Source of the DNA: Microbacterium maritypicum
GTDB taxonomy: Bacteria > Actinomycetota > Actinomycetes > Actinomycetales > Microbacteriaceae
Assembly: GCF_041529975.1 (NCBI RefSeq)
Contig: NZ_CP168030.1
Location: forward strand, 1,612,001 to 1,676,000
Direction of reading: 5' to 3'
DNA: 64,000 bases
Translations under genes and position numbers: made by a program
Part shown: one piece after another, positions 1-59,981 of the stretch
How the letters are laid out: each line of letters opens with the position of its first letter
Numbering within the stretch: position 1 is the first letter of the stretch
Notes under the pieces: generated by a model
What the model was told of the DNA's origin: nothing
What the model saw: the letters and a program-made list of their open reading frames with translations, nothing else
The model's database searches: none

Positions 1-78
1 CCCAGCTGGGAGAGCTTCTATGAAGGCGCGATCGGCGCACTGATACTCATCGGAATCGGCGCAGCCGCAGCGACGTGA
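1..78 (+). CDS. Daptide-type precursor peptide, 5'-truncated
   Basis: An open frame enters from the left edge and stops with TGA at 76-78, giving 25 visible residues that begin PSWESFYEGA and end AAAAT. The visible part is a short acidic/aromatic stretch followed by a Gly/Ala/Ile-rich hydrophobic segment with a C-terminal Thr, the same layout as the two complete small peptides downstream. In the daptide family of RiPPs the C-terminal Thr is oxidatively decarboxylated, transaminated and dimethylated. The leader and start codon are outside the window. The function is inferred from the C-terminal pattern and the neighbouring methyltransferase, protease and exporter genes. Confidence 0.75.
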   Translation, partial: PSWESFYEGAIGALILIGIGAAAAT

Positions 79-120
79 TCTCGTCGACCCGATGAGGGTG
101 ACGAAACGAAAGGAGGAAAT

Positions 121-246
121 ATGCAGGCCACGATGCCGAAGCTCGAGTTCACCGAACTCGAGGCCATGGAAGCGCTGAACGACGGCGAGGACTTCCTGCG
201 GGGATTCGCCGCGGGCGTCATCATCGGGATTCTCGCGCTGACGTAG
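121..246 (+). CDS. Daptide-type precursor peptide (41 aa)
   Basis: This 41-residue peptide has an excellent ribosome binding site (AAAGGAGG ending four bases before the ATG). The N-terminal half is an acidic leader containing LEFTELEAMEAL. The C-terminal half is a hydrophobic core beginning near DFLRGF and ending IIGILALT. The LEFxELE leader motif recurs in the next peptide, which suggests a shared recognition site for a RiPP recognition element. The final residue is Thr, as daptide maturation requires. It lies 42 bp after the preceding precursor and 35 bp before the next. The exact leader/core boundary cannot be read from sequence. Confidence 0.85.
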   Translation: MQATMPKLEFTELEAMEALNDGEDFLRGFAAGVIIGILALT

Positions 247-281
247 TAGTCGTATCCGACTACCGATTGAGGAGGTACCAA

Positions 282-401
282 ATGCTGACGAGATCGCTGG
301 AATTCCAGGAACTCGAACAGATCGACGCACCACTCGAATGGTGGGAGCACGCGGGCTACATCATCGCCATCATCGGCGGTGCGGCAGCGATCGCAACCTG
401 A
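282..401 (+). CDS. Daptide-type precursor peptide (39 aa)
   Basis: This 39-residue peptide starts at ATG 282 behind a GAGGAGGT ribosome binding site. The leader carries LEFQELEQIDAPLEWW, which shares the LEFxELE motif with the upstream peptide. The core is hydrophobic (GYIIAIIGGAAAIAT) and ends in Thr. A longer frame starting at 338 in another phase overlaps it, but the ribosome binding site and similarity to the sister peptide favour this small gene. The three precursors have different cores, so the cluster probably makes three related products. A hairpin follows at 409-435. Confidence 0.85.
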   Translation: MLTRSLEFQELEQIDAPLEWWEHAGYIIAIIGGAAAIAT

Positions 402-408
402 CCGAGGG

Positions 409-435
409 GTGCGGGCGGACCACACCCGCCCGCAC
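409..435 (+). terminator. Hairpin between precursor genes and modification genes
   Basis: A perfect 10-bp stem (GTGCGGGCGG at 409-418 with its complement at 426-435) and a 7-base loop lie just after the last precursor stop codon. No T-run follows. A leaky terminator or processing hairpin here would give more precursor mRNA than downstream enzyme mRNA, a common arrangement in RiPP operons. The regulatory role is inference. Confidence 0.5.
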
Positions 436-463
436 TCCACTGCTCACGCTGAGAGGCCATCGA

Positions 464-1291
464 ATGCCAGGACTGATCACCGAAGCCATGCAGGCGCGAC
501 TCGACCTGGTCGGGGCGCGTCCCCGGGAACAAGACCTGTACGAAGGGGAGGGCACCGACTTCTATGAGCGACTCGTCGGCCCCGACCGTGCCGAGATTCG
601 AGAGATGCTGGCACTCGCGAGAGATGCCGCGGGGCCTGTACTCGATCTCGCCGCGGGAAGCGGGAGAGTGACGATCCCGCTGGTGAGATCCGGCAAGCGA
701 GTCACCGCCATCGACCTTTCGGACGACATGCTCGCCCACCTGCGACGCGCCTTGCCGGAGCGGTCGGCCGTCGAGTGCATCGTCGCGGACATGCGTCACT
801 TCTCGCTGGAGGCCCGGTACGAGCTCGTCATCATCGGCGCGACGTCCATCACCTTGCTCGATCACGAAGGAAGGTCGCTTCTCTACGCGAACGTGCGGCG
901 TCACCTCGCCCCCGGCGGCGTCTTCGCCTTCACCGTCGCCACAGGTGCGTCTGCGCAGAGTCTCGCCGTGCCGACAGAGCGTGAGATCAGAGTCCCTGGT
1001 AGAGGCCAAGACGACATCTATCTCTTCTCCCAGCAGGTGGAAGCGGACGGCGCGGCGCGGGTGGTCAATTGGGTCCGTGCCTCAGACGTGACCCCTGGCG
1101 GCGAAGTCACCATCCTCACCAGCCGATTGCAGCTGCTCAGCCACGAGGTTCTCGCGAGAGAACTCGTCGAAGCCGGCTTCCACGAACCTGCCGTATCTCC
1201 TGTTCGAACGCACCTCGGAGCGGAGATCCTCCTTCTCAAGACGTCGTGGGCGGGGGCCTGGGGAATGGCGGATGGCGATGTTTCCGACTAG
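464..1291 (+). CDS. Class I SAM-dependent methyltransferase, daptide MpaM-like
   Basis: This 275-residue protein has a Rossmann-fold methyltransferase core. Motif I is VLDLAAGSGRVT (about residues 59-70), the ribose-binding acidic residue is in VTAIDLSDDML (about 80-90), and the post-I region IVADMRHF follows. The N-terminal DLYEGEGTDFYERL segment is typical of small-molecule methyltransferases. In daptide biosynthesis the M enzyme N,N-dimethylates the amine made from the C-terminal Thr, and its position directly after three Thr-ending precursors supports that role. ATG 464 was chosen over an upstream frame-compatible start at 338 because the latter overlaps the third precursor. Its 3' end overlaps the protease gene by 20 bp. 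Confidence 0.8.
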   Translation: MPGLITEAMQARLDLVGARPREQDLYEGEGTDFYERLVGPDRAEIREMLALARDAAGPVLDLAAGSGRVTIPLVRSGKRVTAIDLSDDMLAHLRRALPERSAVECIVADMRHFSLEARYELVIIGATSITLLDHEGRSLLYANVRRHLAPGGVFAFTVATGASAQSLAVPTEREIRVPGRGQDDIYLFSQQVEADGAARVVNWVRASDVTPGGEVTILTSRLQLLSHEVLARELVEAGFHEPAVSPVRTHLGAEILLLKTSWAGAWGMADGDVSD

Positions 1292-2951
1292 TTCCCTTCG
1301 GAGGAGAAAGAGCTCCGCACCAGCACCGCTCACTGCAGACACGTGTCCGCTTCTGTCGACCGGAGTCACGTTCGTGGGAGTCGGCGATGAATCGACGGGG
1401 ATAGCAGTGCTGCACGGCGTGCCTTCATCCAGGGTTTCGCGGCCGGTCGTCGACCTGCTGTCGGCGATGGACGGCACGACCTCGCTTCACGATCTGCATC
1501 TGCGCTTCGCCGCATCCGAGTCCTCCGAGAGCTTCCTCCAGCTGGTCCAGCGTTTCCGCGCCACGGGGCTGCTCGAGGGCGACACCAAGCTGCCGCCCGG
1601 TCGGCTGACCTATCGGCCCCCGTTCACGCTGCAGATCGCAACCCTTCGTGCGGCCGCCATCTTCGGTCGACTGCACCGTCTGATCGCGCCCCTCCCACGC
1701 CGGGCGATCCTGGTATCCGTTGCGGCCGTGCTCAGCCTGGGGTTCATGGCGGCCATCCTTCAGGCGAGAGAGCTGCTGAACGTCGTCACCACGCCCATGC
1801 CTTTGGGGGCGATCGTGGTTCTCGTCGCCGTCCTCGCGTGCCTCACCCTGCTCCATGAGAGCGCCCACGGCCTCACACTCACGCGCTACGGCGGCAGGTC
1901 CCGGCGCGCCGGCGTCATGCTCTTCTATCTCGCTCCCGCCTTTTTCGTCGATGTGACGGATGGCTGGCGCCTGCCTCGCCGTCGGCAGCGCGTGGAAGTC
2001 GCTCTTGCCGGACCCGCCGTGCACGCCGTGGTCGCGGCGATCGCACTCACGGCGGCGCTGGTGGCTCCGCAACCGGTCGTCCGCGAGACCCTGCAGATCC
2101 TTGGTCTCTCCTGCACAGCCATCGTCCTCGTCAATCTGATCCCGTTCGTGCGGTTCGACGGGTACATCGCGCTCATGAGTGCGCTGGACGAGCCGAACCT
2201 CAGGAATCGGACGATTCGCGACGGAGCGAACTTCCTGACAGGCCTCCTCTTCGGCGGACGGCGCATGAGCAAGAGCGTGAACACGTGGTGGAGCGTGCCG
2301 TTCGGCCTCGCGAGCCTCATCGCACCGATCACGCTGGTGCTGCTCGCCGTCACACGCGCGGTCCGATCTCTGGCCGCGGGCGGACCAAGTCTCGGGATGT
2401 TCGTGGTGGCGCTGGAAGCCGTCGTCGTGCTCGTCGGGATGGGGCTTTTATGGAGGGCCCTGCACCGGGTGCTCCGGTCAGGTGTGTCGCGACTGCGCTT
2501 CATCTCGGTCTGCGCCGCGCTGGGTGCGATCATCGTGATCGCCGGAGCCGTGATCCCCGTACCGATGACCGCCACCTTCGGCTTCTCCACAGAAGGCGGT
2601 CGGGTGGTCCTTGTCCACGCCGACGGGCAAACGGCAGTGGAGGTGCGCGACGGGACCCCTATCGTGCTCTTGAGCAGCGGCATCCTGGGCAGCCGGCAGG
2701 TCGGTGAAGGAACCGCGAGACCGCAGCGACCCGAGCCCACGAGGGTGCCGCTCGATGCTCTGGTTCCCGCCACAGCGGCGGGCGTGTCGGTCTCGGCCGT
2801 GTCCTTCGCAGAAGTGGATGTATCCGACAGAGGCGGGAGCCCTCCCGAGGCCGGGCAGGCGAGGTTCGATCTCGGAATGGTGAGTCTGTGGGAGTTCCTC
2901 TGGGCCACCGGCGTGATGCAGCCACTTTCGGCATCCCAGAACGAGAAGTAG
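1272..2951 (+). CDS. M50-family intramembrane metalloprotease, daptide MpaP-like
   Basis: This 559-residue multi-pass membrane protein has zinc motif HESAH at residues 195-199 inside a hydrophobic stretch. The second site-2-protease motif, NLIPFVRFDGY, places the third zinc ligand at about Asp296. Residues 30-105 resemble a PqqD-like/winged-helix peptide-binding region (VSRPVVDLLSAMDGTTSL). After more membrane segments, a soluble C-terminal region of about 120 residues follows. The likely role is removal of the leader from the precursor peptides in the membrane, because none of the transport genes carries a peptidase domain. It is probably translationally coupled to the methyltransferase by the 20-bp overlap, and the ABC ATPase starts 13 bp downstream. 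Confidence 0.8.
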   Translation: MAMFPTSSLRRRKSSAPAPLTADTCPLLSTGVTFVGVGDESTGIAVLHGVPSSRVSRPVVDLLSAMDGTTSLHDLHLRFAASESSESFLQLVQRFRATGLLEGDTKLPPGRLTYRPPFTLQIATLRAAAIFGRLHRLIAPLPRRAILVSVAAVLSLGFMAAILQARELLNVVTTPMPLGAIVVLVAVLACLTLLHESAHGLTLTRYGGRSRRAGVMLFYLAPAFFVDVTDGWRLPRRRQRVEVALAGPAVHAVVAAIALTAALVAPQPVVRETLQILGLSCTAIVLVNLIPFVRFDGYIALMSALDEPNLRNRTIRDGANFLTGLLFGGRRMSKSVNTWWSVPFGLASLIAPITLVLLAVTRAVRSLAAGGPSLGMFVVALEAVVVLVGMGLLWRALHRVLRSGVSRLRFISVCAALGAIIVIAGAVIPVPMTATFGFSTEGGRVVLVHADGQTAVEVRDGTPIVLLSSGILGSRQVGEGTARPQRPEPTRVPLDALVPATAAGVSVSAVSFAEVDVSDRGGSPPEAGQARFDLGMVSLWEFLWATGVMQPLSASQNEK

Positions 2952-2964
2952 AAAGAGGATCAAG

Positions 2965-3681
2965 ATGAACGACCATGCGATCGAAGTCCGAGGACTCACC
3001 AAACGATATGGCAACCGAACCGCCGTCGAGGAGCTGTCGTTCGCTGTGCCGCGGGGGTCCATCGTCGGTCTGCTCGGGCCCAACGGCGCGGGCAAGTCGA
3101 CGACTCTGCGCAGCATCGTGGGTCTGCTCGCGCCGACCAGCGGCGACAGCCTCATCGACGGTGCCCCGTTCACCGCCCTCGACAACCCCGCATCGCACGT
3201 CGGCGTGCACATGGACGGCTTCGGCTTCGAACTCGGGATCACCGCGAGACGGCATCTGGAGATATCCCGACTCGCGGCCGGCGCATCTTCCGGCCGCGTC
3301 GACGAGGTCCTGGAGATGGTCGGACTCGCTCCAGACGCCCGTCGCCGTGTGAAGACCTACTCGACCGGGATGGCCCAGCGACTCGGGCTCGCTGCTGCGC
3401 TCATCGGTTCTCCGCGCACTCTCATCCTCGACGAGCCGGCGAACGGGTTGGACCCCAACGGCATTCGATGGCTCCGCCGGTTCCTCCGCGGCTTCGCGGA
3501 AAGCGGCGGCACCGTCTTGATCGCCAGTCATCAACTGGCCGAACTGGAACAGGTCGTGGATGAGGTCGTCGTCATCAAGCGGCGCGCGCTCTACGCCGGG
3601 CGGCTCGGCGACCTCGTAACGAGCGACCGCGATTCTCTCGAGAGCAAGTACTTCGACCTGGTCGAAGGAGCACCCGCATGA
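2965..3681 (+). CDS. ABC transporter ATP-binding protein (peptide export)
   Basis: This 238-residue nucleotide-binding subunit has Walker A GPNGAGKS (about 38-45), signature STGMAQRLGLA (about 133-143) and Walker B LILDEP (about 153-158) followed by ANGLDP. It resembles the BcrA/DrrA/NatA group, which pairs with separate membrane subunits for peptide or antibiotic export or self-protection. An AAGAGG ribosome binding site precedes the ATG. It overlaps the permease gene by 4 bp (ATGA). In this operon it should energise export of the mature peptides or confer immunity; the two roles cannot be separated from sequence. Confidence 0.85.
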   Translation: MNDHAIEVRGLTKRYGNRTAVEELSFAVPRGSIVGLLGPNGAGKSTTLRSIVGLLAPTSGDSLIDGAPFTALDNPASHVGVHMDGFGFELGITARRHLEISRLAAGASSGRVDEVLEMVGLAPDARRRVKTYSTGMAQRLGLAAALIGSPRTLILDEPANGLDPNGIRWLRRFLRGFAESGGTVLIASHQLAELEQVVDEVVVIKRRALYAGRLGDLVTSDRDSLESKYFDLVEGAPA

Positions 3682-4406
3682 GACGAGCCATTCGGAGCGA
3701 GGTGCTGCGCGCGGTGAGCGGCCTCTCCATTCTGCCCGTCTACTTCATCGCGCTCCTCATGCCCCTGTTCGTTCTCTTCTCCGACGGCTCCCGCTTCGAT
3801 GTCGCCGGCGTCGAGGCTGGCGCTGCCACGACCCGGCTCCTGGAGCCGCTTGCCTGGTCCGCCATCGCCGCGGCGTTCGCCGGGGCATACGGTGTCACCC
3901 GCGAGTACTACTACGGCTCGATGGACAGAACGCTGACCGGCGTCGGATTTCGTCGCGCATTCACGGGAAAGCTCGTCGCCGGTGCCTTTGTCGCGAGCGC
4001 ACTGTCAGTGTGCATCTTCGTGCTGTGGACGGTGGGGGTGCACTTCCTTCTCGCTCAGAACGGACTTTCGCTCGTGCTCACCCAGGATGCCTGGCAGATA
4101 TATGCGGGAGCTCTGCTCGGCTCCGTGCTCGGTTCCCTCGTCGGAGGTGCCATCGGCTGGATAACACGGAACTACTACGTGACGGCGGCTCTCGTTCTCG
4201 CCATCCCGATGGCGGTGGAGTTCGCGCTGCTGCGGAACGCACCTGAGCTGGCGCGGTTCTCGCCCGGGTTGGCCCTCGCCGCGCTGAGCGTTCCCGGGTA
4301 CCAGGACCAGCTGCTCGAGTTCATCCCTGCACTCGCTGTCGCGCTCGCTTGGGCTGTCGGCCTGGTCGCGCTCGCGTGGTACCGGAGACGAAGGGCCGTT
4401 TCGTGA
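3678..4406 (+). CDS. ABC-2 type permease subunit 1
   Basis: This 242-residue hydrophobic protein has about six predicted membrane spans, including segments around residues 18-33, 54-70, 100-125 and 210-235. The loop EYYYGSMDRTLTGVGFRRAFTGK is typical of ABC-2/bacitracin-type permeases. The start overlaps the ATPase stop by 4 bp and the end overlaps the next permease by 4 bp (GTGA), so the three are almost certainly co-translated. It is one half of the transmembrane channel of the presumed peptide exporter. Confidence 0.75.
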   Translation: MRRAIRSEVLRAVSGLSILPVYFIALLMPLFVLFSDGSRFDVAGVEAGAATTRLLEPLAWSAIAAAFAGAYGVTREYYYGSMDRTLTGVGFRRAFTGKLVAGAFVASALSVCIFVLWTVGVHFLLAQNGLSLVLTQDAWQIYAGALLGSVLGSLVGGAIGWITRNYYVTAALVLAIPMAVEFALLRNAPELARFSPGLALAALSVPGYQDQLLEFIPALAVALAWAVGLVALAWYRRRRAVS

Positions 4407-5137
4407 TTCTGCGGGCTCTGTGCGCTCAGAGCCGGAGCTTCACGGCCGACATCGTCCTCCTCTGGAGCGCGGTGGCGGCATTTGCGATGTCGCTCTCCCT
4501 GGCGACGAGCGTCCCACCGGAGTTCGCGACTGCGCCTGCTGATGTTCGTGAGGCGCTCATCGCGCCCTTCGGGGCCGTGCTTGCGACGTATGGCGCAGTT
4601 GTCGCGGCTGTTTATGGTTCCTTCCGGTACACCGTCGACCGCCGAGATGGTGTCATCGCGCAGCGTCTGATGCTCCAGCCTCGGTGGGTGATCTTCCTCA
4701 CCCGAATGCCCACTTCTGCGCTCGGCGGTGCGGTCGTCGCTCTCGCTGGCGTGGTGGGGGGTCACGTTGCGCTGATGATCGCCATGGGCGGCATTCCTGT
4801 GCAGTGGTCATCGGTCGGCCCCGTCGTTGCGCTCGGCGCTGTCGCGGGCCTCTGGGGAATGGGGCTCGGGATCGTCATCCAGACCCATCTGGTGGCTTTG
4901 TTCGCCGCATCCATGTCGATGGCGGCGGCGATGCTGGTGGCGCCCTTCTGGAGTGCGGGCGCCGTCTACCTTCCGCTTCTCGCAATGCTCGAAGCCCTTC
5001 AGTTCGACATCACCGCCCTGGGAGTGGAACCGAAGGACAGCCTCGACACATGGCTGGCCGTGCTGGTGGTAGCAGGGTGGGTGGTGGCGGCACTCGGGGT
5101 TGGCGCAGTCGCGTTTCTGAAGCGCGACGTGAAGTAG
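4403..5137 (+). CDS. ABC-2 type permease subunit 2
   Basis: This 244-residue hydrophobic protein has about six membrane spans. It shares with subunit 1 the general layout and a cytoplasmic loop (SFRYTVDRRDGVIAQRLMLQP, split here around a Tyr/Asp-rich turn). GTG 4403 was chosen because it overlaps the preceding stop by 4 bp; an earlier in-frame start would overlap the preceding gene by more than 50 bp. It forms the second transmembrane half of the exporter and is the last gene of the peptide operon: a gap of 63 bp and an unrelated tRNA-modification gene follow. Confidence 0.75.
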   Translation: MILRALCAQSRSFTADIVLLWSAVAAFAMSLSLATSVPPEFATAPADVREALIAPFGAVLATYGAVVAAVYGSFRYTVDRRDGVIAQRLMLQPRWVIFLTRMPTSALGGAVVALAGVVGGHVALMIAMGGIPVQWSSVGPVVALGAVAGLWGMGLGIVIQTHLVALFAASMSMAAAMLVAPFWSAGAVYLPLLAMLEALQFDITALGVEPKDSLDTWLAVLVVAGWVVAALGVGAVAFLKRDVK

Positions 5138-5200
5138 CGCGGCCGGGACCGGCTCTGAGCGGGTTCCGCCCACCACCCGCACCCGACGTAGGATTCCTGG

Positions 5201-6091
5201 GTGGCAACCCCCAAGATCGTCCTCTTCTACGCGTTCACGCCCCTCGCCGACCCCGACGCCGTGCGCGTCTGGCAGCGCGACATCGGCGAGGCGCTCGGGC
5301 TGCGCGGACGACTGCTCATCTCGAAGGACGGGATCAACGGCACTCTCGGTGGTGACATCACGGTCCTGAAGAAATGGCTCCGTTCCTTCCGCTCCTACGC
5401 GCCGTTCGCGGACGCCGACATCAAGTGGAGCGAGGGGACGGGGCTCGATGCCGAAGGCCGCAGCCTCGACTTCCCGAAGCTCAGCGTCAAGGTGCGTGAC
5501 GAGATCGTGTCGTTCGGAGCCCCGGGAGAGCTGCGTGTCGACGAGCACGGCGTCGTCGGTGGAGGCACCCGCCTGACCCCGGAAGAACTGCACGCGCTGA
5601 TGGACGAACGCGGCGACGACGTGGTGTTCTTCGATGGCCGCAACGCCCTCGAGGCGCAGATCGGACGGTTCCGCGGCGCGGTCGTGCCCGACACCGAGAC
5701 GACCCGGGATTTCGTGCAGCTCCTCGACTCCGGCGCCTACGACGACCTGAAGGGCAAGCCGGTCGTGACCTACTGCACCGGCGGGATCCGCTGCGAGGTG
5801 CTATCGAGTCTCATGACGGCTCGCGGCTTCGGCGAGGTCTACCAGCTCGAGGGCGGCATCGTCCGCTACGGCGAGAAGTACGGCGACGACGGCCTCTGGG
5901 ACGGCTCGCTGTACGTGTTCGACGGCCGTGGCTCCGTCGACTTCTCCGACCACGCGCGGGTCATCGGCGAGTGCGTCGGCTGCGGGACGCCCACCAAGCG
6001 CACCGCCAACTGCCCCGACCTCTCCTGCCGCTCGCAGTTCGTGGTGTGCGAGGCGTGCGTCGCCGTGTCCTGCGCCGTTCACGCCGCCTGA
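5201..6091 (+). CDS. trhO: tRNA uridine(34) hydroxylase, rhodanese family
   Basis: This 296-residue protein has an N-terminal acylphosphatase-like domain ([20 protein letters not shown]) and a central rhodanese domain. The catalytic-loop Cys192 lies in [12 protein letters not shown]-terminal Cys-rich tail contains CVGCG and CEAC pairs that could bind zinc. This is the TrhO/YceA layout; the family uses prephenate-independent oxygen chemistry to make 5-hydroxyuridine at the tRNA wobble position. It starts with GTG and is a single gene between the peptide operon and a convergent transglutaminase gene. Confidence 0.9.
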
Positions 6092-6145
6092 ACGCGGGTT
6101 CGACCGACCCAGCCGACCCGAGCCGAGCGTCCCGGAGCCCTGCCG

Positions 6146-8413
6146 TCAGACCGCCGCTCCTGGCTCGGCGGCTCGCGGAGCGTACAGGGACCGCGGCAGC
6201 AGTGCGGCGCGCACCCGGGTCGGTCGGTCGACGCTTTCGCGCAGCTGCACCAAGACCTGGCGCAGTGGCTCGGACAGATCAGTCTCCGCATCACCGGAGC
6301 GGGCGTAATTGGACTGCTCGACGGCATCCGTGAGTCGACGCATCGCCGCCGCGTCGACCTGGTTCGACCGCACGAGACCCGCCGCACGCACACGTGGGGT
6401 CTCGGCATCGGACACGTCTTGTTGGAGGTCGATCAACGTGTCGCGGAGCTCGGCCCAAGCCGCCGCGGAGTCTCCGCCTCGCGCTCGGCTCATGCGACCG
6501 CGGCGCTCCACGACGCGGATGAGCGCCGGCAGCAGGAGCAGCACGACGACTCCGAGTGCGGTGAGCGCGACCGGCATCGGGTCGAGGGTGCGCCGTGCGC
6601 CGCCGTCCGCCGAGTCGCCGCCGTCGGGGTCACGGTCCACCTCCGGAGCCGAGGTCTCTTCGCTCTGCGGGGCCGTGGTGGGGACGGGGACGGACGGGTC
6701 TCCGGAGCCACCGCCCTGCGTCACCCCCGCCCGGAAGGCGGTCGGTACCCCCAGCGAGGCCGTCGGCTCGAAGGGAACCCAGCCGACGCCGGGGAAGAGC
6801 ACTTCCGGCCAGGAATGCAGCTGGTCGCTGGTCACGGAGAAGACCGATTCCGTGCCGCGCTTCTCATCGGTGAGCGAGCCGGGCAGGTACCCGACGACGA
6901 TGCGCACCTGCATCCCCAGGCTCTCGGCCATCAGTGCGAAGGCTCCGGCGAAGTGCACGCAGTACCCGTGGCGCTCTTCGAGGAACTGCGCCACGGCCTC
7001 GGCTCCGGTGCCGTCGAAGCCTTCCTGCACCGGTGTCTCGAGGGAGTACGCGAACTGCGAGCGGAACCAGTTCTGCAGTGCCACGAGTCGGTCGTAGTCG
7101 GTGCTCGCGGCCGCGGTCACGTCGGTGGCCAGCTCGGCGATGATGCCCGGCAGCTCCACGGGCTCCGCCTCGGGATCGACGACGGGGGGCGCGGCGTCGA
7201 TCGCGCGGATCTGCTCGAGCGTCGGGATCAGGCGGGACGAGGTGACGGTGTAGTCGTTGCCGACGGCATCGGCGCTGCGCGAGAAGAGCGTGCGGTTGTC
7301 GGGGGAGACCCGCCACGAGCCGCTCAGACCCTGCACGGCGGTGGCCGGGTACGGCACCGGAAGCCACGAGCTCGACATGCGCAGCACCCGGATGGAGGTG
7401 TTCTCCTCCTCCGTCGCGATCTCCTCACCCCACTCCGGGGCGCCGAAGCCGTCGTCCTGCGACTGCAGGTCGCCTCGGTCGGGCTGCCAGACGCGTCCGT
7501 CGAACCGGGAGAGCGTCGTCAACCGCAGGTAGGGGGCGGTCTCGCCGTCCGCCGCCACGGTCAGCACCTCGACCGGGTTCGGTTGGCGCAGGTCGTCACC
7601 GAGGCGCAGCGATGCGTCGACCGTGACGCCGACGCCGGTGCCGGCCATGCTCGTCGCGACGGGCAGCGCGGGTGCGATGGCCACGGTCGTGACCAGCGCG
7701 GCGGCCCCGAGCGCGACGGCGAGCGAGGTCGACGATCGGCGAGGCGATTCCGGATGCCGGCGCGCGGTGTAACGGAAGAGGAGCAGGGCCATCACGCCGT
7801 AGAGCACGAACCAGATCACGTTCGTCTCACCCAGGGTGACGATCATCGGCACCGCGCCGATGGCGCCGGTCAGCAGCGCAGCCAGCACGGCCGAGCGGTG
7901 CGCCACGAGCTGGTCGAGGAGGATCGCGACGATCGCGAAGCCGGCGCCCATCGTGGCGGCGAGCCCGGGCGAGGCGTCGAGCGGCGCGGAACCGAAAGCG
8001 ACCTCCTCGAAGGCCGCGGCCCCGAGGGCTCCGAACACCGCGAGGGTGGTCGTCGTCGGGACCACCCCGAAGATCGCGGTGTCACCCGCGACGAGCAGCG
8101 TCACGGCGCCGATGGCCACGACGATCTGGGTGAGGAGGGTGCCGGTGTCCCGGACCCATGCCGCCCGTCGGCGCAGCAGGTGCCGCAGCAGCATGCCCGT
8201 CCCGGCCACGACGATGACCACGACGAGGACCGTACCCGACCAGGTGCCCGGAGAGATGACCGACGTGTACGGCCACGTCGCCACGAGTGTCGCCGCGGCA
8301 GCCAGTGCACCGGGGCCGACGACGCCGGTCGTCTCCTCGCGGTCGCGGTGCCACTGCGGCGCGGATGGCGTGGGGGCGGCCGCGGTCGGGGCCGACCGCT
8401 CAGCGCGGAACAT
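6146..8413 (-). CDS. Transglutaminase-like membrane protein (DUF3488 type)
   Basis: This 755-residue protein begins with about six membrane spans. A periplasmic transglutaminase-like domain follows, with the catalytic Cys in HGYCVHFAGAFALM, His in QLHSWPEVLFPG and an acidic residue in WVPFEPT. A Ser/Thr/acid-rich linker leads to one more membrane span (VALTALGVVVLLLLPALI) and a cytoplasmic tail. The architecture is typical of the third gene of actinobacterial MoxR-DUF58-transglutaminase operons, whose substrate is unknown. The start at 8413 gives a 14-bp overlap with the DUF58 gene; longer upstream frames are Pro/Arg-rich shadow sequence. Confidence 0.85.
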   Translation of the reverse strand: MFRAERSAPTAAAPTPSAPQWHRDREETTGVVGPGALAAAATLVATWPYTSVISPGTWSGTVLVVVIVVAGTGMLLRHLLRRRAAWVRDTGTLLTQIVVAIGAVTLLVAGDTAIFGVVPTTTTLAVFGALGAAAFEEVAFGSAPLDASPGLAATMGAGFAIVAILLDQLVAHRSAVLAALLTGAIGAVPMIVTLGETNVIWFVLYGVMALLLFRYTARRHPESPRRSSTSLAVALGAAALVTTVAIAPALPVATSMAGTGVGVTVDASLRLGDDLRQPNPVEVLTVAADGETAPYLRLTTLSRFDGRVWQPDRGDLQSQDDGFGAPEWGEEIATEEENTSIRVLRMSSSWLPVPYPATAVQGLSGSWRVSPDNRTLFSRSADAVGNDYTVTSSRLIPTLEQIRAIDAAPPVVDPEAEPVELPGIIAELATDVTAAASTDYDRLVALQNWFRSQFAYSLETPVQEGFDGTGAEAVAQFLEERHGYCVHFAGAFALMAESLGMQVRIVVGYLPGSLTDEKRGTESVFSVTSDQLHSWPEVLFPGVGWVPFEPTASLGVPTAFRAGVTQGGGSGDPSVPVPTTAPQSEETSAPEVDRDPDGGDSADGGARRTLDPMPVALTALGVVVLLLLPALIRVVERRGRMSRARGGDSAAAWAELRDTLIDLQQDVSDAETPRVRAAGLVRSNQVDAAAMRRLTDAVEQSNYARSGDAETDLSEPLRQVLVQLRESVDRPTRVRAALLPRSLYAPRAAEPGAAV

Positions 8414-9590
8414 CGCCGACTCCGATCCGCGCCGAGACGGCATCCTCCCACGCCTCGGCGATGTCCGCTCCGAGCTCCACGACCGTCCAGCCGTGCGGGA
8501 CGGAGGCCTCGGCGGCACCGGGCAGCAGCTCGGTGCTGAACAGCATGGGGGCGGTGGCTCCCGCCGGACGCAGCAGGGCGGCGTCCTCCTCATCGAGGCG
8601 CCCGGTGATGAAGACCAGCGGGCCGGGAGGCGTTCCTCCGATGAGCGACGCCAGGTCCCGACTCTCGCCGCGGGGTGTCACCATCGCCAGCGCCACGAGC
8701 AGTCCGTCACGGTCGTCTTCGTGCCCGCGCAGGGCGCCGAGCAGAGTTCCCGCGCCGTCGATCACGTCGACGCTGTAGCCCTCGGACGCGAGATGGATGG
8801 CGGAGGAGGCGCACAGGGACACAGCGGCTTCGAAGGCCGGATCGGCGTGGACGCCCGGCGCATCCCAGTGGCGGCTGCTGCGGTCGAGCACGACGACCGC
8901 GTCAGGGCTCGACTCCTCCTCTTCCTGTCGCACCATGAGCTGCCCGCGGTGTGCGGTCGCCCTCCAGTGGATGCGACGCATCGAGTCGCCGGGGATGTAG
9001 CCGCGCGGTGACAGGTTGTCGCTGCCCTGCCCCAGCCTCGTCGACGAGGTGTGCGCGGTTCCTCCGGCGGCTCCGACCCGCACGGCGAGCGGGGCGAGGG
9101 CGAAGACCTCGGGCACGACGGTGACGCTGCGGCTGTCGCCGAACGGCTGCTCGCGCTGCGCCAGCCCGAACGGATCCACCGTGCGCAGCATGAGCGGCCC
9201 GAGCGGCCAGACGCCGCGTCGGACGCCGGTGATCAGGTAGGTGAGCTGACCGGTCTCGGGCGGGTACTCGCCGCCCGAGTCGCCGGTGACGGCGTCGGGC
9301 AGCACGTCGTGCCAGAGCCCCCGTGGCACGCGGAGGGCGCGCAACGTGAAGCGCACCGTGACCCTCGAGGTCTCCGACACGGTCAGCAGGTCGGTCGAGA
9401 TCTGACGGGTGACCGTCCCGGAGCGGCGGGGGAGACGCACGGCGAGGAGCGAGAAGAGGGTGAGGGCGGCGAGCAGCACCCCGATGTAGAGCAGGATGCG
9501 GGCGCCGAGGACGTTGGCGGCGATCATGCAGCCCAGCGCGGCGATGAGCGCACCGGCGCCGCGGCTGGTGAGGGATCGGCGTCGTCGCAT
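8400..9590 (-). CDS. DUF58 domain membrane protein
   Basis: This 396-residue protein has two N-terminal hydrophobic segments (residues about 10-45), an extracytoplasmic beta-rich region, and a C-terminal von Willebrand A-like DUF58 domain. The DUF58 signature is seen as SMRRIHWRATAHRGQLMVRQEEEE, split around the conserved HWRATA. It begins at ATG 9590, 11 bp after the moxR stop. MoxR ATPases and DUF58 proteins are thought to act together as a chaperone-like pair, here with the transglutaminase. The exact process in this organism is unknown. Confidence 0.85.
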   Translation of the reverse strand: MRRRRSLTSRGAGALIAALGCMIAANVLGARILLYIGVLLAALTLFSLLAVRLPRRSGTVTRQISTDLLTVSETSRVTVRFTLRALRVPRGLWHDVLPDAVTGDSGGEYPPETGQLTYLITGVRRGVWPLGPLMLRTVDPFGLAQREQPFGDSRSVTVVPEVFALAPLAVRVGAAGGTAHTSSTRLGQGSDNLSPRGYIPGDSMRRIHWRATAHRGQLMVRQEEEESSPDAVVVLDRSSRHWDAPGVHADPAFEAAVSLCASSAIHLASEGYSVDVIDGAGTLLGALRGHEDDRDGLLVALAMVTPRGESRDLASLIGGTPPGPLVFITGRLDEEDAALLRPAGATAPMLFSTELLPGAAEASVPHGWTVVELGADIAEAWEDAVSARIGVGDVPR

Positions 9591-9601
9591 GAGGGTCTCG
9601 G

Positions 9602-10591
9602 TCAGGAACGGGTCGCGACGGGAACGCGCACCCGTTCGACGATCTGGGCGAGCGCCGCCTCGACGGGCTGGGCGCCCGCACGGTGGGCGCCGCGAGCGGG
9701 CAGCAGCCGGTGCGCCAGCACGGGGATCAGCAGCGCCGTGATGTCGTCGGGAATGACGTAGTCGCGCCCGTCGAGGGCGGCCCACACCTTCGCCGCCCTG
9801 ATCAGCTGCAGGGTGGCCCGGGGGCTCGCGCCGAGGTGGAGGTTCGGGTCGGAACGGGTCGACTGCGCGAGGGCGACCGTGTACTCCTCCAGCGCGGGGG
9901 CCACGTGGACGGAGCGCGCCCACGCGATGAGCTGGGAGATGGATGCCGCATCGGCGACGGGCGTCACCGCGGCGAGCGGGCTCACCACATCGCGCTGACG
10001 GAGCATGAGGGTTTCGGCTGCGGCATCCGGGTATCCCATCGAGATGCGCATCATGAAGCGGTCGCGCTGCGCTTCGGGCAGGGCATAGGTGCCCTCCATC
10101 TCGAGCGGATTCTGGGTCGCCACGACCAGGAACGGCTTCGGCAGCATGTGCGTGGCTCCGTCGACCGTGACCTGTCCCTCCTCCATCGCCTCGAGCAGCG
10201 CAGACTGCGTCTTCGGGGAGGAGCGGTTGATCTCGTCGGCGATCACGATGTGGGCGAACACCGCGCCGCGCTTGAACTCGAACTCCCGATCGACCGGGTT
10301 GTAGACCGAGACGCCGGTGACATCGCCGGGAAGCAGGTCGGGGGTGAACTGGATGCGGCGCACCGTCGCGTCCACGCTCGCGGCCAGCGCCCGGGCGAGC
10401 ATCGTCTTGCCGACGCCGGGCACATCTTCGATGAGCAGGTGCCCCTCGGCGAGGAGGCAGACGAGCGCGCTGCGCACGGCATCGGGCTTGCCGTCGATGA
10501 CCTGGCCGATGGAGCCGAGGATCGCGGAGGTCTGCGCGGCGAACCGCTCGGCGTCGATCGTCACCGGGACCAGGGGGGCGTTCTCGGGCAT
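9602..10591 (-). CDS. MoxR-family AAA+ ATPase
   Basis: This 329-residue AAA+ ATPase has Walker A GVGKT at residues 59-63, Walker B VIADEINR, and the sensor-1 region ATQNPLEMEGTYALPEAQRDRF that is characteristic of MoxR proteins. It is the first gene of the minus-strand operon moxR-DUF58-transglutaminase. It probably remodels or activates a partner through the DUF58 protein. The promoter should lie in the 10592-10735 interval shared with the divergent SRP RNA gene. Confidence 0.9.
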   Translation of the reverse strand: MPENAPLVPVTIDAERFAAQTSAILGSIGQVIDGKPDAVRSALVCLLAEGHLLIEDVPGVGKTMLARALAASVDATVRRIQFTPDLLPGDVTGVSVYNPVDREFEFKRGAVFAHIVIADEINRSSPKTQSALLEAMEEGQVTVDGATHMLPKPFLVVATQNPLEMEGTYALPEAQRDRFMMRISMGYPDAAAETLMLRQRDVVSPLAAVTPVADAASISQLIAWARSVHVAPALEEYTVALAQSTRSDPNLHLGASPRATLQLIRAAKVWAALDGRDYVIPDDITALLIPVLAHRLLPARGAHRAGAQPVEAALAQIVERVRVPVATRS

Positions 10592-10735
10592 GCGTTCCCT
10601 CTCACATCGGCGCTGCGGTGCGCGTTACTCGATCGTAACCCTGTGGAGGGGGTAACGCTCTGGCAGGTTCCCCTGAGCTCTCCGCCATCCGCGGTGACGG
10701 TTCGAACCACCCGGCGCATCGGGTTAGGATGGTTG

Positions 10736-10830
10736 ACGGCTCTCCGCGTGGCGGCATCCAGGCCAATTCCCCCAGGGCGGAAACGCAGCAAGGGTAACCG
10801 GGCTCTGCTGGGTGCGCGGAGGGTCACTTT
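10736..10830 (+). ncRNA. ffs: Small SRP RNA (4.5S RNA)
   Basis: The region contains the apical element of bacterial signal recognition particle RNA: a GGAA tetraloop in GGGCGGAAACGCAGCAAGGG (10775-10794), the segment bound by Ffh. An outer helix pairs CTCCGCG (10741-10747) with CGCGGAG (10815-10821). A TAGGAT -10 box lies at 10724-10729, and a T-rich tract (CTTTCTTTTTCT) follows at 10827-10838. The boundaries are approximate. dnaX-recR, which often sits near ffs in actinobacteria, is 8 kb downstream. Confidence 0.9.
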
Positions 10831-10895
10831 CTTTTTCTGCGGGTGATCCGCCGGATGCTCAGTCGTCTCCTGGCTGCACCTGCGACAATCATCCG

Positions 10896-11507
10896 GTGAC
10901 CGTCTCCCCACCACCGAAGGTGCAGCATCCGCTCGGCCGTTTCGCCTCGCCGGTGCTCCTGCTCGTCGCGATGTGGGTCGTGCAGTTCGCCGATGCGATC
11001 CTGCCGGGGTCTTTCACCGGCTTCGGGTTGCGGTCCTGGGATGTGTCCGGTCTCGGTGGCATCGTGCTCGGTCCGCTCCTGCACGCGAACTGGCAGCATC
11101 TCATCGGCAACTCGGTGCCGTTCCTCGTCCTCGGCTGCCTCGTCGCGGTCGAAGGAACCCGCCGATTCTGGGCCGTCACGGCGATCGTCGCGGTCGTCAG
11201 CGGCATCGGCACGTGGCTCTTCAATGCTCCCGGCACGCTGACGGTCGGCGCCTCCGGACTCGTGTTCGGATACTTCGGCTACGTCGTGATGCGGGTGTTC
11301 GCGCCGGGCCGGGTCGCCCACCGGATCCTCTACGCCGTCATCGCGTTGATCGTGCTCGCCCTGTACGGTGCCACGATGCTGGCCGGGGTGTTCGGCGTCG
11401 CCGAGGGGATCTCCTGGCAGGGTCACCTCTTCGGCGCGATCGGTGGCGGACTCGCCGCCCTCATCGGCCGTCGCCCGCGAACAGAGCGCGGAGCGCTCGC
11501 GGCATGA
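10896..11507 (+). CDS. Rhomboid-family intramembrane serine protease
   Basis: This 203-residue six-span membrane protein has the rhomboid catalytic dyad: Ser120 in GASGLVFG and His177 in WQGHLFGAIGG. The loop-1 element HANWQHLIGN supplies the conserved His and the oxyanion-hole Asn72. GTG 10896 was chosen because it places the first span at the usual distance; the longer in-frame start at 10812 would lie inside the SRP RNA. It overlaps the next gene by 4 bp. Substrates are unknown. Confidence 0.85.
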   Translation: MTVSPPPKVQHPLGRFASPVLLLVAMWVVQFADAILPGSFTGFGLRSWDVSGLGGIVLGPLLHANWQHLIGNSVPFLVLGCLVAVEGTRRFWAVTAIVAVVSGIGTWLFNAPGTLTVGASGLVFGYFGYVVMRVFAPGRVAHRILYAVIALIVLALYGATMLAGVFGVAEGISWQGHLFGAIGGGLAALIGRRPRTERGALAA

Positions 11508-12202
11508 GTCCTCGACGCGCGGCGTCGCCGGCGAAGCGCAGGCGGGCGACGACGAAGCCGAGATCGAAGCGGAAGAGCACGGCGCGGCGGCGCAAACCCG
11601 GCACGCGACGGCAGGCGGCGATCCGGCTCCGCCGCCGGAAGATCCTGCAGCGGGTGCTCGTGTCGACCACGGCCGTCCTGGTGCTCGGCGGGCTGCTGGC
11701 CCTCATCCCGCTCGGGCTCGCGCGCGACCCGGCACCGATCTGCATCGACGAGCCGCAGACGTTCCCGGAGGCGGGCATCGAGGGGTGGAGCGGAGAGCAG
11801 CTCGAGAATGCGGCGACCATCGTGCGCACGGCGGCCCGGCTGGGCTTCCCGCGAGAGGGGCAGATCCTCGGGGTGATGACGGCGATGGGCGAGAGCAGCC
11901 TGCGCAACATCGACTACGGCGACTGGGAGACGAGCGGGTTCACCAACCCCGACGGCTCGCGCACCACGAGCATCGGGCTGTTCCAGCAGCAGGACTGGTG
12001 GGGGAGTGCCGAGCAGCGGATGGATCCGGCGACCGCCACGACCCTGTTCTTCGACCGCCTCGGCCGGCTTCCCGACTGGCAGAGCATGCAGCCGTCGCAC
12101 GCGATCCACCGGGTGCAGATCAACATGGATCGCGACTACTACTCCCGATTCCAGGCGGATGCCACGGCGGTCGTCGATGCGCTGTCGGGGCACTGCGAGT
12201 GA
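11504..12202 (+). CDS. Membrane-anchored lysozyme-like (SLT-like) protein
   Basis: This 232-residue protein has a very basic N-terminal 48 residues, one membrane span (about 50-72) and an extracytoplasmic domain. That domain resembles lytic transglycosylases: Glu130 in TAMGESSLRNIDYGD matches the ES motif, and TTSIGLFQQQDWW (about 152-165) matches the GLMQ-type motif. Peptidoglycan cleavage is therefore likely but not proven. It is translationally coupled to the rhomboid gene, which could point to proteolytic release of this anchored enzyme, although that is only a suggestion. Confidence 0.65.
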   Translation: MSPRRAASPAKRRRATTKPRSKRKSTARRRKPGTRRQAAIRLRRRKILQRVLVSTTAVLVLGGLLALIPLGLARDPAPICIDEPQTFPEAGIEGWSGEQLENAATIVRTAARLGFPREGQILGVMTAMGESSLRNIDYGDWETSGFTNPDGSRTTSIGLFQQQDWWGSAEQRMDPATATTLFFDRLGRLPDWQSMQPSHAIHRVQINMDRDYYSRFQADATAVVDALSGHCE

Positions 12203-12267
12203 CGCCGGCGCAATAGTTCCGGTGGCATGCCCGGTGGGTTCACGGATGCCGCGCCTAAGCTGAAGCT

Positions 12268-14385
12268 GTGGCGCAGAGCATCTACATCACCTCGGCCGAA
12301 GGCCATACCGGAAAGTCGACGATCGCCCTCGGGGCGCTCGACGCGTTGATGCGCGTCTCGCCGCGGGTGGGGGTGTTCCGCCCGATCGCGCGGTCCGTCA
12401 CCGAACGCGACGACATCCTCGAGCTGATGCTGGCGCACGACGGCGTGCAGCTCGACTACGAGGACTGCATCGGCGTCACCTACGACGACGTGCGCAGCGA
12501 CCCGGAAGCGGCGCTGTCGACGATCGTCGCGCGGTTCAAGGCGGTCGAGGCGCAGTGCGACTCCGTCGTGATCATCGGCAGCGACTACACGGATGTCGCC
12601 AGCCCCGCCGAGCTCGGCTTCAACGCGCGTGTGGCCGCCAACCTGGGGGCGCCGGTCATGCTCGTCCTCAGCGGTCGTGATCAGCAGCGCCAGGCGGAGC
12701 AGCTGGGCACGACGACCGCTCGCGCAGCCGCTGCCGTCGGACAGATCGCAGAGCTGGCGCTGTCCGAGCTCGCCGCCGAACGGGCCGAACTCTTCGCGGT
12801 CGCCGTGAACCGGGCAGACCCCGACGCGCTCGACGCCGTGATCGATGCCGTGCGTGCGGTCCTCCACGACGAGCGCACGCCGGTGTGGGCGATCCCCGAG
12901 GACCGTGCGCTGGTCGCCCCGTCGATCCGCGGCATCCTCGCAGCCGTCGACGGGAAGCTCCTCAAGGGCGACGACGACCGGTTGGCGGCGGAGGCGCTGA
13001 CGATCGTGGTCGCCGGGATGTCGATGGTCAACGTGCTGCCGCGGCTCACCGAAGAGGCGGTCGTGGTGATCCCCGCCGACCGCACCGAGGTGCTCCTCGC
13101 TGCGCTGCTGGCCGACTCGTCCGGCACCTTCCCGCGCATCGCCGGCATCATCCTGAACGGCCCCTTCCCGCTGCCGGAGCCGATCCTCCAGCTGCTCGAC
13201 GGATTCGCCTCCACGGTTCCGATCATCACGACCGACCTGGGCACGTACGACACGGCGGTGCGGGTGATGGGCGCCCGCGGCCGGATCTCGGCCGATTCCC
13301 GCAGCCGGTACGACCGCGCGCTCGGCCTGTTCCAGGCGCATGTGGACATCGCCGAGCTGACCGAGAAACTCGGGCTCGCGGAGTCACGGGTCGTCACACC
13401 GTTGATGTTCCAGTACGGGCTCATCGAGCGTGCCCGGTCCGACCGTCGCCGCATCGTGCTGCCCGAAGGGGGAGACGACCGCATCCTCCGCGCCGCCGCC
13501 ACGCTGCTGGCCCGGGAGGTCGCCGACCTCACGATCCTCGGTGACGAGGCCGCGGTGCGGGCGCGTGCCGTCGAGCTGGGCGTCGACATCGCGGCGGCCC
13601 AGGTGCTCAGCCCGACCGACCCCGAGCTGGTGGAGCGCTTCGCCGCCGAGTACGCGCGCCTCCGCGCCCACAAGGGCATCACGCTCGCCCAGGCGGCCGA
13701 CACCGTGACCGACGTGTCGTACTTCGGCACGATGATGGTGCATCTCGGCCTCGCCGACGGGATGGTCTCCGGCGCCGCGCACACGACCGCGCACACCATC
13801 CGCCCGTCGTTCGAGATCATCAAGACGAAGCCGGGGGTGAACGTCGTCTCGAGTGTCTTCCTGATGGCGCTCGCCGACCGTGTGCTCGTGTACGGCGACT
13901 GCGCCGTGATCCCCGATCCGACGAGCGAGCAGCTCGCCGACATCGCGATCTCCTCCGCGACCACGGCGCGCCAGTTCGGGATCGATCCGCGCGTCGCGAT
14001 GCTGTCGTACTCGACCGGAGAATCCGGCACCGGCGCCGACGTCGACAAGGTGCGCGCGGCGACCACCCTCGTGCGCGAGAGGGCACCGGAGCTGCCGGTG
14101 GAGGGCCCCATCCAGTACGACGCGGCGGCGGATGCGGCGGTCGCCAAGGCCAAGCTCCCCGGCTCCGCCGTGGCCGGACGGGCGACGGTGTTCGTGTTCC
14201 CCGACCTCAACACCGGCAACAACACCTACAAGGCCGTGCAGCGATCGGCGGGCGCCGTCGCCATCGGACCGGTGCTGCAGGGGCTCAACAAGCCCATCAA
14301 CGACCTCTCCCGCGGCGCCCTGGTCGACGACATCGTCAACACCGTCGCGATCACCGCGATCCAGGCGCAGGGAGAGCACGCATGA
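12268..14385 (+). CDS. pta: Phosphate acetyltransferase
   Basis: This 705-residue enzyme is of the long Pta type. It has an N-terminal P-loop-like domain (TSAEGHTGKSTIALGAL), a central DRTGG domain and a C-terminal catalytic domain from about residue 380 (RRIVLPEGGDDRIL, VSGAAHTTAHTIRPSF, MLSYSTGESG). It interconverts acetyl-CoA and acetyl phosphate. It starts with GTG and overlaps ackA by 4 bp, so acetate production or assimilation is encoded as one operon. Confidence 0.95.
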   Translation: MAQSIYITSAEGHTGKSTIALGALDALMRVSPRVGVFRPIARSVTERDDILELMLAHDGVQLDYEDCIGVTYDDVRSDPEAALSTIVARFKAVEAQCDSVVIIGSDYTDVASPAELGFNARVAANLGAPVMLVLSGRDQQRQAEQLGTTTARAAAAVGQIAELALSELAAERAELFAVAVNRADPDALDAVIDAVRAVLHDERTPVWAIPEDRALVAPSIRGILAAVDGKLLKGDDDRLAAEALTIVVAGMSMVNVLPRLTEEAVVVIPADRTEVLLAALLADSSGTFPRIAGIILNGPFPLPEPILQLLDGFASTVPIITTDLGTYDTAVRVMGARGRISADSRSRYDRALGLFQAHVDIAELTEKLGLAESRVVTPLMFQYGLIERARSDRRRIVLPEGGDDRILRAAATLLAREVADLTILGDEAAVRARAVELGVDIAAAQVLSPTDPELVERFAAEYARLRAHKGITLAQAADTVTDVSYFGTMMVHLGLADGMVSGAAHTTAHTIRPSFEIIKTKPGVNVVSSVFLMALADRVLVYGDCAVIPDPTSEQLADIAISSATTARQFGIDPRVAMLSYSTGESGTGADVDKVRAATTLVRERAPELPVEGPIQYDAAADAAVAKAKLPGSAVAGRATVFVFPDLNTGNNTYKAVQRSAGAVAIGPVLQGLNKPINDLSRGALVDDIVNTVAITAIQAQGEHA

Positions 14386-15602
14386 GCGCGATCCTGGTGA
14401 TCAACAGCGGTTCGTCGTCGCTGAAGTACAGCCTGATCGACATCGAGCAGGAGAACCTGCTGGCGAGCGGGCTCATCGAGCGCATCGGCCAGGACGCCAG
14501 CCCGGTCGCCCACACCGTCCGCCCCGAGTCCGACGGCACGGCCATGCCGACGATGCTGGACGCGACGTATCGCGACGAGCGCCCGATCGCCGATCATGCC
14601 GCCGCCTTCGAGATCATGCGCGCGCAGTTCGCCGCGCACGGCCCGTCACTCGAGGAACACCGCCCGGTCGCCGTGGGGCACCGCGTGGTCCACGGGGGCG
14701 CCCGCTTCTACGCCCCGACGTTGATCGATGCCGATGTGGAGCGGCAGATCGATGAGCTCGCTGTGCTCGCGCCGCTGCACAACCCCGCGAACCTGGCCGG
14801 CATCCGCGCCGCCCGCGCCGTGTTCGATCAGGTTCCGCACGTCGCCGTCTTCGACACGGCGTTCCACCAGACGCTCCCGCCCGCCGCGTACACCTACGCG
14901 ATCGACGCCGCGCTCGCCGCGGAGCACCGGGTGCGCCGCTACGGCTTCCACGGCACGAGCCACCAGTTTGTGAGCGAGGCCGCGGCGGCGTTCCTCGGCC
15001 GTGACCTCGGCAGCCTCCGACAGCTCGTGTTCCACCTCGGAAACGGGGCGTCGGTGACGGCGATCGACGGCGGTCGCTCGGTCGAGACCTCGATGGGGCT
15101 CACCCCGCTCGAGGGCCTGGTCATGGGCACCCGCTCCGGCGACATCGACCCCGCCGCGCTCGTGCACCTGTCGCGTCGTGCCGGCCTCTCGATCGACGAC
15201 CTCGACTCGCTGCTCAACACCCGCAGCGGGCTGGCCGGCCTCGCCGGTCGGAGCGACATGCGCGACATCCTCGCCGGGGTGGAGGCGGGGGACGACGCCG
15301 CGATGCTCGCCTTCGACGTGTACGTGCACCGCCTGCGCGCCTATGCCGGCGCGTACATCGCGCAGCTCGGGGGAGTGGACGTCATCTCCTTCACCGCCGG
15401 CGTCGGCGAGAACTCGGCGCCGGTGCGGGCGGCCGCGATGGCGACCCTCGGATTCGCGGGTGTGGAGATGGATGCCGCCCGCAACGAGGCGAGGGAACGC
15501 GGCATCCGGCGCATCTCCACGAACACCTCACCGGTGACGGTCCTCGTGGTGCCGACGGATGAGGAACTGCAGATCGCCCGGCAGACGGCCGAACTGCTCT
15601 GA
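14382..15602 (+). CDS. ackA: Acetate kinase
   Basis: This 406-residue enzyme has the ASKHA-fold motifs of acetate kinase: N-terminal INSGSSSLKYSLID, the substrate Arg in GHRVVHGG, the catalytic Asp region AVFDTAFHQTLP, YGFHGTSHQFV, and FHLGNGASVTAIDGG. It catalyses acetyl phosphate + ADP to acetate + ATP. It overlaps pta by 4 bp. No strong terminator is visible before the beta-phosphoglucomutase gene 100 bp downstream. Confidence 0.95.
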   Translation: MSAILVINSGSSSLKYSLIDIEQENLLASGLIERIGQDASPVAHTVRPESDGTAMPTMLDATYRDERPIADHAAAFEIMRAQFAAHGPSLEEHRPVAVGHRVVHGGARFYAPTLIDADVERQIDELAVLAPLHNPANLAGIRAARAVFDQVPHVAVFDTAFHQTLPPAAYTYAIDAALAAEHRVRRYGFHGTSHQFVSEAAAAFLGRDLGSLRQLVFHLGNGASVTAIDGGRSVETSMGLTPLEGLVMGTRSGDIDPAALVHLSRRAGLSIDDLDSLLNTRSGLAGLAGRSDMRDILAGVEAGDDAAMLAFDVYVHRLRAYAGAYIAQLGGVDVISFTAGVGENSAPVRAAAMATLGFAGVEMDAARNEARERGIRRISTNTSPVTVLVVPTDEELQIARQTAELL

Positions 15603-31988: not shown

Positions 31989-32066
<78 letters not shown>

Positions 32067-56624: not shown

Positions 56625-56697
56625 GCCGCTTTAGCTCAGTCGGCAGAGCATTTCACTCGTAATGAAAAGGTCGTCAGTTCGATTCTGACAAGCGGCT
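56625..56697 (+). tRNA. tRNA-Thr (anticodon CGT)
   Basis: A complete cloverleaf is visible. The acceptor stem is GCCGCTT/AAGCGGC, the D arm is GCTC/GAGC, the anticodon stem is TTTCA/TGAAA around CTCGTAA (anticodon CGT), and the T arm is GTCAG TTCGATT CTGAC. A TAATAT -10 box is nearby (56591-56596). Confidence 0.95.
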
Positions 56698-59908: not shown

Positions 59909-59981
59909 TGGGCCCCGTGGGGCTCGAACCCACGACCCGCGGATTAAAAGTCCGATGCTCTGCCAACTGAGCTAGAGGCCC
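59909..59981 (-). tRNA. tRNA-Lys (anticodon TTT)
   Basis: A minus-strand cloverleaf is visible. The acceptor stem is GGGCCTC/GGGGCCC with G-U pairs, the D arm is GCTC/GAGC, the anticodon stem is TCGGA/TCCGC-type around CTTTTAA (anticodon TTT), and the T arm is GTGGG TTCGAGC CCCAC. The discriminator is A. Confidence 0.95.

Follow-up and report, generated by a model that had tools for sequence, protein, structure and literature searches.

Two diverged DapB genes in a Microbacterium daptide cluster at a chromosomal site shared with other daptide clusters

Results

The window, i.e. the whole stretch of 64,000 nucleotides that was analysed (G000:C1:1612001-1676000, from a single-contig genome of 3.9 Mb), begins inside a complete mpa-type daptide cluster; the class membership is as certain as sequence allows, and the cluster contains two different DapB genes in tandem. 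We are highly confident of the daptide assignment together with this hybrid make-up, in which two different DapBs are kept. A further-reaching reading, less likely than not (probability roughly 0.35), is that in about one quarter of the sampled DapB-positive Microbacterium genomes one DapC and two DapBs of ancient divergence would together form the decarboxylase, a hetero-complex with one RRE needed and the other DapB kept for its DUF, and that this arrangement would have arisen by type I/type II replacement at the tRNA-Ser/trhO site with DapB1 as homology arm.

The preliminary description had proposed a daptide-class cluster with its B, C and D genes left of the window. Reading the sequence left of position 1 (fetched as stretch L009; L009 position minus 9000 gives the window position) confirmed this placement, but a single B had been expected and two were found. 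The 4.6 kb of the cluster left of the window contain the two DapBs, DapD, DapC and the start of A1 (five genes), and the complete order, all on the + strand, is DapB1, DapB2, DapD, DapC, A1, A2, A3, DapM, DapP, DapT1, DapT2, DapT3. DapB1 (L009:4386-5450) and DapB2 (L009:5447-6499) reach 200.7 and 261.6 bits with NF041823 (cut-off 150), and the DUF with C-terminal RRE that characterizes DapB is present. DapD (L009:6496-7755; NF041821, 557.9 bits, cut-off 450; PF00202) is a class III aminotransferase, and DapC (L009:7752-8879; NF041822, 329.1 bits, cut-off 300; PF00465) belongs to the dehydrogenase family of the oxidative decarboxylase, which is its predicted role. Downstream of the precursors, profiles identified the methyltransferase and the M50-type protease as they had been described: DapM (464-1291; NF041820, 265 bits, cut-off 175) as a SAM-dependent N-methyltransferase and DapP (1272-2951; NF041824, 380.6 bits, cut-off 300; PF02163) as an intramembrane M50-type metalloprotease and predicted leader peptidase with a presumed N-terminal RRE fused to it, the NF041824 match spanning residues 38-398. 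Of the suggested three-gene ABC exporter, the ATPase DapT1 (2965-3681; PF00005, 97.8 bits) stands, whereas DapT2 (3678-4406) and DapT3 (4403-5137), for which no Pfam or NCBIfam family came over its cut-off, are presumed permeases from their position and their conservation across other daptide loci. The genes overlap by a few to 20 bases at B1-B2, B2-D, D-C, M-P and within the transporter set, which is operon-like, and the last transporter gene ends at window 5137.

As B, C, D, M, P and A1-A3 all exceed curated NCBIfam daptide cut-offs and NF041823 matched 0 of 14 control genomes, chance or artefact was rejected as an explanation. Neither a second cluster nor a second DapC was found in the same genome, and the cluster is probably working. 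In a phmmer comparison of DapC with 9knp, the Asp-x3-His of the 9knp chain, which we take to be metal ligands, is aligned to Glu-x3-Arg, and the other ligands lie beyond the alignment. The Glu-x3-Arg reading agrees with the loss of the metal ligands reported for TfDapC (PMC12338566). Elsewhere in the window, a small SRP RNA and three tRNAs of ordinary appearance were found (10735-10831, 31993-32066, 56625-56697 and 59909-59981).

The three hydrophobic cores ending in Thr (AAAAT, LALT and AIAT) are as noted before, and so is the LEFxELE leader common to A2 and A3. A1 (L009:8944-9078) is cut by the left window edge, and window 1-78 contains its final 26 codons including the stop; A2 (121-246) and A3 (282-401) are complete inside the window. 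Motif and core are ELDEMEAP and SWESFYEGAIGALILIGIGAAAAT in A1, ELEAMEAL and NDGEDFLRGFAAGVIIGILALT in A2, where the expected cut is preceded by Leu and not by Pro, and ELEQIDAP and LEWWEHAGYIIAIIGGAAAIAT in A3. Each precursor matches its own curated family (A1: NF041805, MpaA1, 92.3 bits; A2: NF041806, MpaA2, 92.4 bits; A3: NF041807, MpaA3, 86.0 bits; cut-off 40 in each case; E 9e-27 to 1e-24). Therefore, a new precursor family was rejected, and with it the earlier suggestion that the cores may be new family members. All three also exceed the cut-off of NF041808, and they are the only matches to do so in this genome; for comparison, 12 of the 94 mechanical open reading frames of 35-50 amino acids in the window end in Thr. 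A1 of the tandem locus L045 (G256:C1:3070000-3089000) likewise has Leu at the last position ahead of the predicted cleavage; in this locus B2, P and T3 are each broken into two frames, possibly by sequencing errors.

Assuming a cut after the eight-residue motif and conversion of Thr to Dmp (-16.94 Da), the predicted [M+H]+ values of the A1, A2 and A3 products are 2364.30, 2245.27 and 2309.28. For loci L015, L052 and L054, which have one DapB each, the same rule reproduces the m/z of 2363, 2232 and 2339 published for daptides 1-3 (PMC10036551), which supports the rule and marks these loci as mpa-type. Precursors were listed in a first pass up to L064 and with a stricter filter in L065, L067-L070 and seven other loci; this filter missed some type II precursors, and a third one per cluster was seen in G060 and G083.

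DapB1 and DapB2 are only 32% identical. A survey of 295 genomes of the genus yielded 50 DapB-positive ones (NF041823), of which 13 contain a tandem DapB pair; 14 tandem loci were compared. A B1-type protein is the sole DapB in another 5 of the 50 (G083, G023, G060, G108 and G143); in these clusters, called type II here, D, C and M have much lower scores on profiles built from mpa-type loci, and the precursors differ from type I ones. G027 has two non-tandem DapBs on different contigs, each in a daptide cluster of its own (L046 and L047), the second of which is strongly divergent and has longer precursors. Outside the genus, no tandem DapB was recognised in the matching genomes (9 of 398 of the family and 19 of 394 of the class, our own genome being counted in both). 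Two DapB matches lie within one reading frame in G963 and G100. In G685 two DapB pieces join at profile position 228; their frames differ and the junction has no stop codon. This resembles a broken frame, and the match was kept as pieces.

In a first tree, from which contig repeats (L034, L036, L040, L066), L048, L049 and the broken B2 pieces of L045 were left out, the B1 rows, 15 in number, group in a single clade (support 100/99). A second tree of 80 rows with outgroups was computed by a quick method with SH-aLRT support only and additionally left out L093, L099, L101, L115, L116, L118 and L120. In this quick tree B1 and B2 form lineages of their own, and the B2 side is joined by three genomes from a different genus of the family (SH-aLRT 96). 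The type II rows L094, L096 and L070 are the first branches of the B1 clade (SH-aLRT 84 to 95), and L089 and L092, also type II, are nested among the tandem B1s. Therefore, the history of the B1 clade was not a single one-way step, which also bears on the direction of the exchange described below.

The B1 reading frame is intact in all 14 tandem loci and shorter in three of them; in 3 of the 14 the leader-binding RRE is absent from B1, which takes at least two changes on the tree. To describe selection, dN/dS was calculated (NG86, ratio of median dN to median dS) for 28 pairs from 8 genomes, covering 8 of the 14 tandem loci; near-duplicates (L010, L011), loci with a short B1 (L042-L044) and the locus with a broken B2 (L045) were set aside. 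The values, which are averages over old divergence between species, are about 0.30 (DUF) and 0.36 (RRE) for B1 and about 0.31 and 0.37 for B2. For the pair L042/L044, whose B1s are without an RRE, the B1 ratio is 0.25 (240 codons), and the accompanying B2s give 0.30. At the level of codon changes this shows that B1 is under purifying selection resembling that of B2 between species, and that it has been kept in L042/L044 without its RRE. Within a species (L009/L010), where changes are very few, the ratios come close to 1 (0.91 for B1 and 0.81 for B2). We assume that the RRE of B1 is probably dispensable in some lineages. Furthermore, tandem clusters carry the same set of three precursors that single-B2 clusters do, so that B1 as a whole is not required for the mpa-type pathway.

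Tandem, single-B2 and type II clusters share a common site between tRNA-Ser(GGA) and trhO (5201-6091 in the window, the right neighbour of the site). In all 14 tandem loci tRNA-Ser(GGA) lies upstream of B1 and trhO after T3. The same tRNA was found at 20 distinct single-B2 loci, including L015, L052 and L054, with trhO in 19 of the 20 (in L064 it falls outside the fetched stretch); for L016-L019 and relatives, also single-B2, neither tRNA-Ser nor trhO was found within the fetched stretches. Among the five type II loci, four have tRNA-Ser(GGA), and the contig of G023 starts too near for a decision; four (G083, G108, G143 and G060) have trhO or its flank on the downstream side; the distance from the tRNA to B1 is 1.3-1.8 kb in L070, L094 and L096. 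A TrhO search of 12 genomes without a DapB match gave seven matches, three of them close (74-89%). In G001 and G014, which have close matches, GNAT, tRNA-Ser(GGA) and trhO are about 1.2 kb apart, no cluster gene is present, and by this gene order the site is an empty one; G014 has the tRNA in inverted orientation. At L065 (G116:C6:115000-132000) DapB2 alone is left, directly adjoining trhO; the remaining cluster has apparently been lost.

Upstream of DapB1, L009:4300-4345 carries a conserved stretch, AATATTGCA ... TATAGCCTCA ... GAGGAC, which recurs in most of 23 aligned loci, whether tandem, single-B2 or type II, in the interval from tRNA-Ser to the first DapB, and is a candidate promoter or regulator site of the cluster. 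In some of the gaps between tRNA-Ser and DapB long open frames were seen; by eye, one in L060, L061 and L095 resembles a phosphotransferase-like protein, and those in L094 and L096 resemble a DeoR-type regulator.

The junctions of the cluster can be seen by comparison with G060, which has a type II cluster at the same site. The left flanks are 96.2% identical over 4.2 kb apart from one 100-base block after the tRNA at 79%, and the identity is still 95.1% over the 0.3 kb from L009:4295 to about B1 codon 71. The remainder of B1, as far as aligned, drops to 74.2%, DapB2 has no match in G060, and the aligned part of DapD is 66.7% identical. Five bases past the last transporter gene, at window 5142, the identity resumes and stays at 95.3% over 9.4 kb (5142-14577). 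The G060 cluster is split over contigs C3 and C13, and its middle was never seen in one piece. The change of content inside B1 and just after T3 is the pattern expected after homologous exchange in which B1 was the left arm. It is likely that type I and type II cassettes have taken each other's place here. The most likely mechanism would be homologous recombination in which B1, common to both, served as left arm and the flank with trhO as right arm.

Discussion

Daptides, small peptides in which the acid end has become an amine, have been known as a class since their publication in 2023; relative to the literature examined (PMC10036551, PMC12338566 and PMC12670281, of which parts are drawn on here, supplements aside), the tandem layout and the chromosomal site are new. 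We found no mention there of two DapBs or of a shared site, and published data sets may contain such clusters. The closest described system is the mpa cluster of Microbacterium paraoxydans DSM 15019 (PMC10036551), which has the same set of A1-A3, B, C, D, M, P and transporter and precursors of the same three families, and the mass-matched mpa-type loci occupy the same tRNA-Ser/trhO site as the cluster described here. It differs in having one MpaB, as do the mass-matched loci, in the Pro that is replaced by Leu before the expected cut of A2 here, and in its cores and predicted masses. The tfDap and saDap clusters (PMC12338566, PMC12670281) have DapB, C, D, M, P and a transporter in common with our cluster, but one DapB is described for them; both own a YcaO, and tfDap has in addition a dehydratase and a luciferase-like enzyme. 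No gene for any of these enzymes was seen here. In contrast to these single-DapB layouts, the two DapB genes make the present cluster a variant within the daptide class. The type II Microbacterium clusters share with it the B1-lineage DapB and, where testable, the site, but they are without B2 and have divergent D, C and M and other precursors.

Since the individual steps have been shown in the literature for homologous clusters, we infer a similar pathway from the gene set. The RRE of DapB2 would hold the ELExxxxx leader of A1, A2 or A3, DapC would convert the C-terminal Thr to a ketone by oxidative decarboxylation, DapD would turn the ketone into an amine and DapM would dimethylate the amine to Dmp. 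DapP would then cut off the leader after the eighth motif residue, and the ABC genes would export three hydrophobic, probably helical peptides. For tfDap/saDap, a two-component decarboxylase and cleavage after ELExxxxx irrespective of the adjacent residues are described (PMC12338566, PMC12670281). DapB1 would probably be a second, partly redundant DapB that acts via its DUF domain with DapB2 and DapC. The simplest reading is that its substrates are the same peptides and that it perhaps forms a complex with DapB2 and DapC; a working partnership of this kind seems possible to us, at somewhat less than even odds.

Instead, the daptide cluster could be an ordinary one and B1 a functionless relic of cassette exchange that has not yet eroded. 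That single-B2 clusters, including the mass-matched mpa-type loci, manage without B1 would fit this explanation, and so would the repeated loss of its RRE, but a reading frame intact in every tandem locus and a dN/dS that resembles that of B2 between species, with 0.25 for the DUF of the RRE-less pair, speak against it, and we regard a relic as rather doubtful. It is very unlikely that B1 serves, in trans, another precursor encoded elsewhere in the genome. The B1-type DapBs of type II clusters do accompany other precursors; however, a search of the 13 tandem genomes with a type II precursor led to places within the clusters only (A1 or A3, and in G029 a weak match with E 0.97 in the transporter region), the own genome offers a single DapC and no NF041808 match over the cut-off besides A1-A3, and the RRE-less B1s would be unable to bind a leader in the known way.

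Another explanation concerns the origin of the pair, namely an old tandem duplication within type I clusters followed by loss of B2 in type II. The position of the type II rows L089 and L092 among tandem B1s is in line with such a history, but in the quick tree L094, L096 and L070 are the earliest branches of the B1 clade and the three genomes of the other genus join the B2 side, and the type II D, C and M are far from those of type I. We consider the duplication unlikely and retain a hybrid cluster formed by cassette exchange as our main reading.

If neither the DUF role nor the cassette exchange holds, the cluster would be one more member of a class for which 1,034 putative clusters are listed (PMC12338566). 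The DUF of DapB is needed together with DapC, and a further role is not given in the parts of the literature examined; an RRE-less DapB1 beside a full DapB2 separates the role of the DUF from leader binding and is testable in the published E. coli system. Daptides 1-3 are hemolytic, and no growth inhibition was seen (PMC10036551). A shared site with clear junctions between near relatives offers strains a way to change their daptide set, and if the hetero-complex and the cassette replacement are true, close relatives would swap one secreted peptide set for another.
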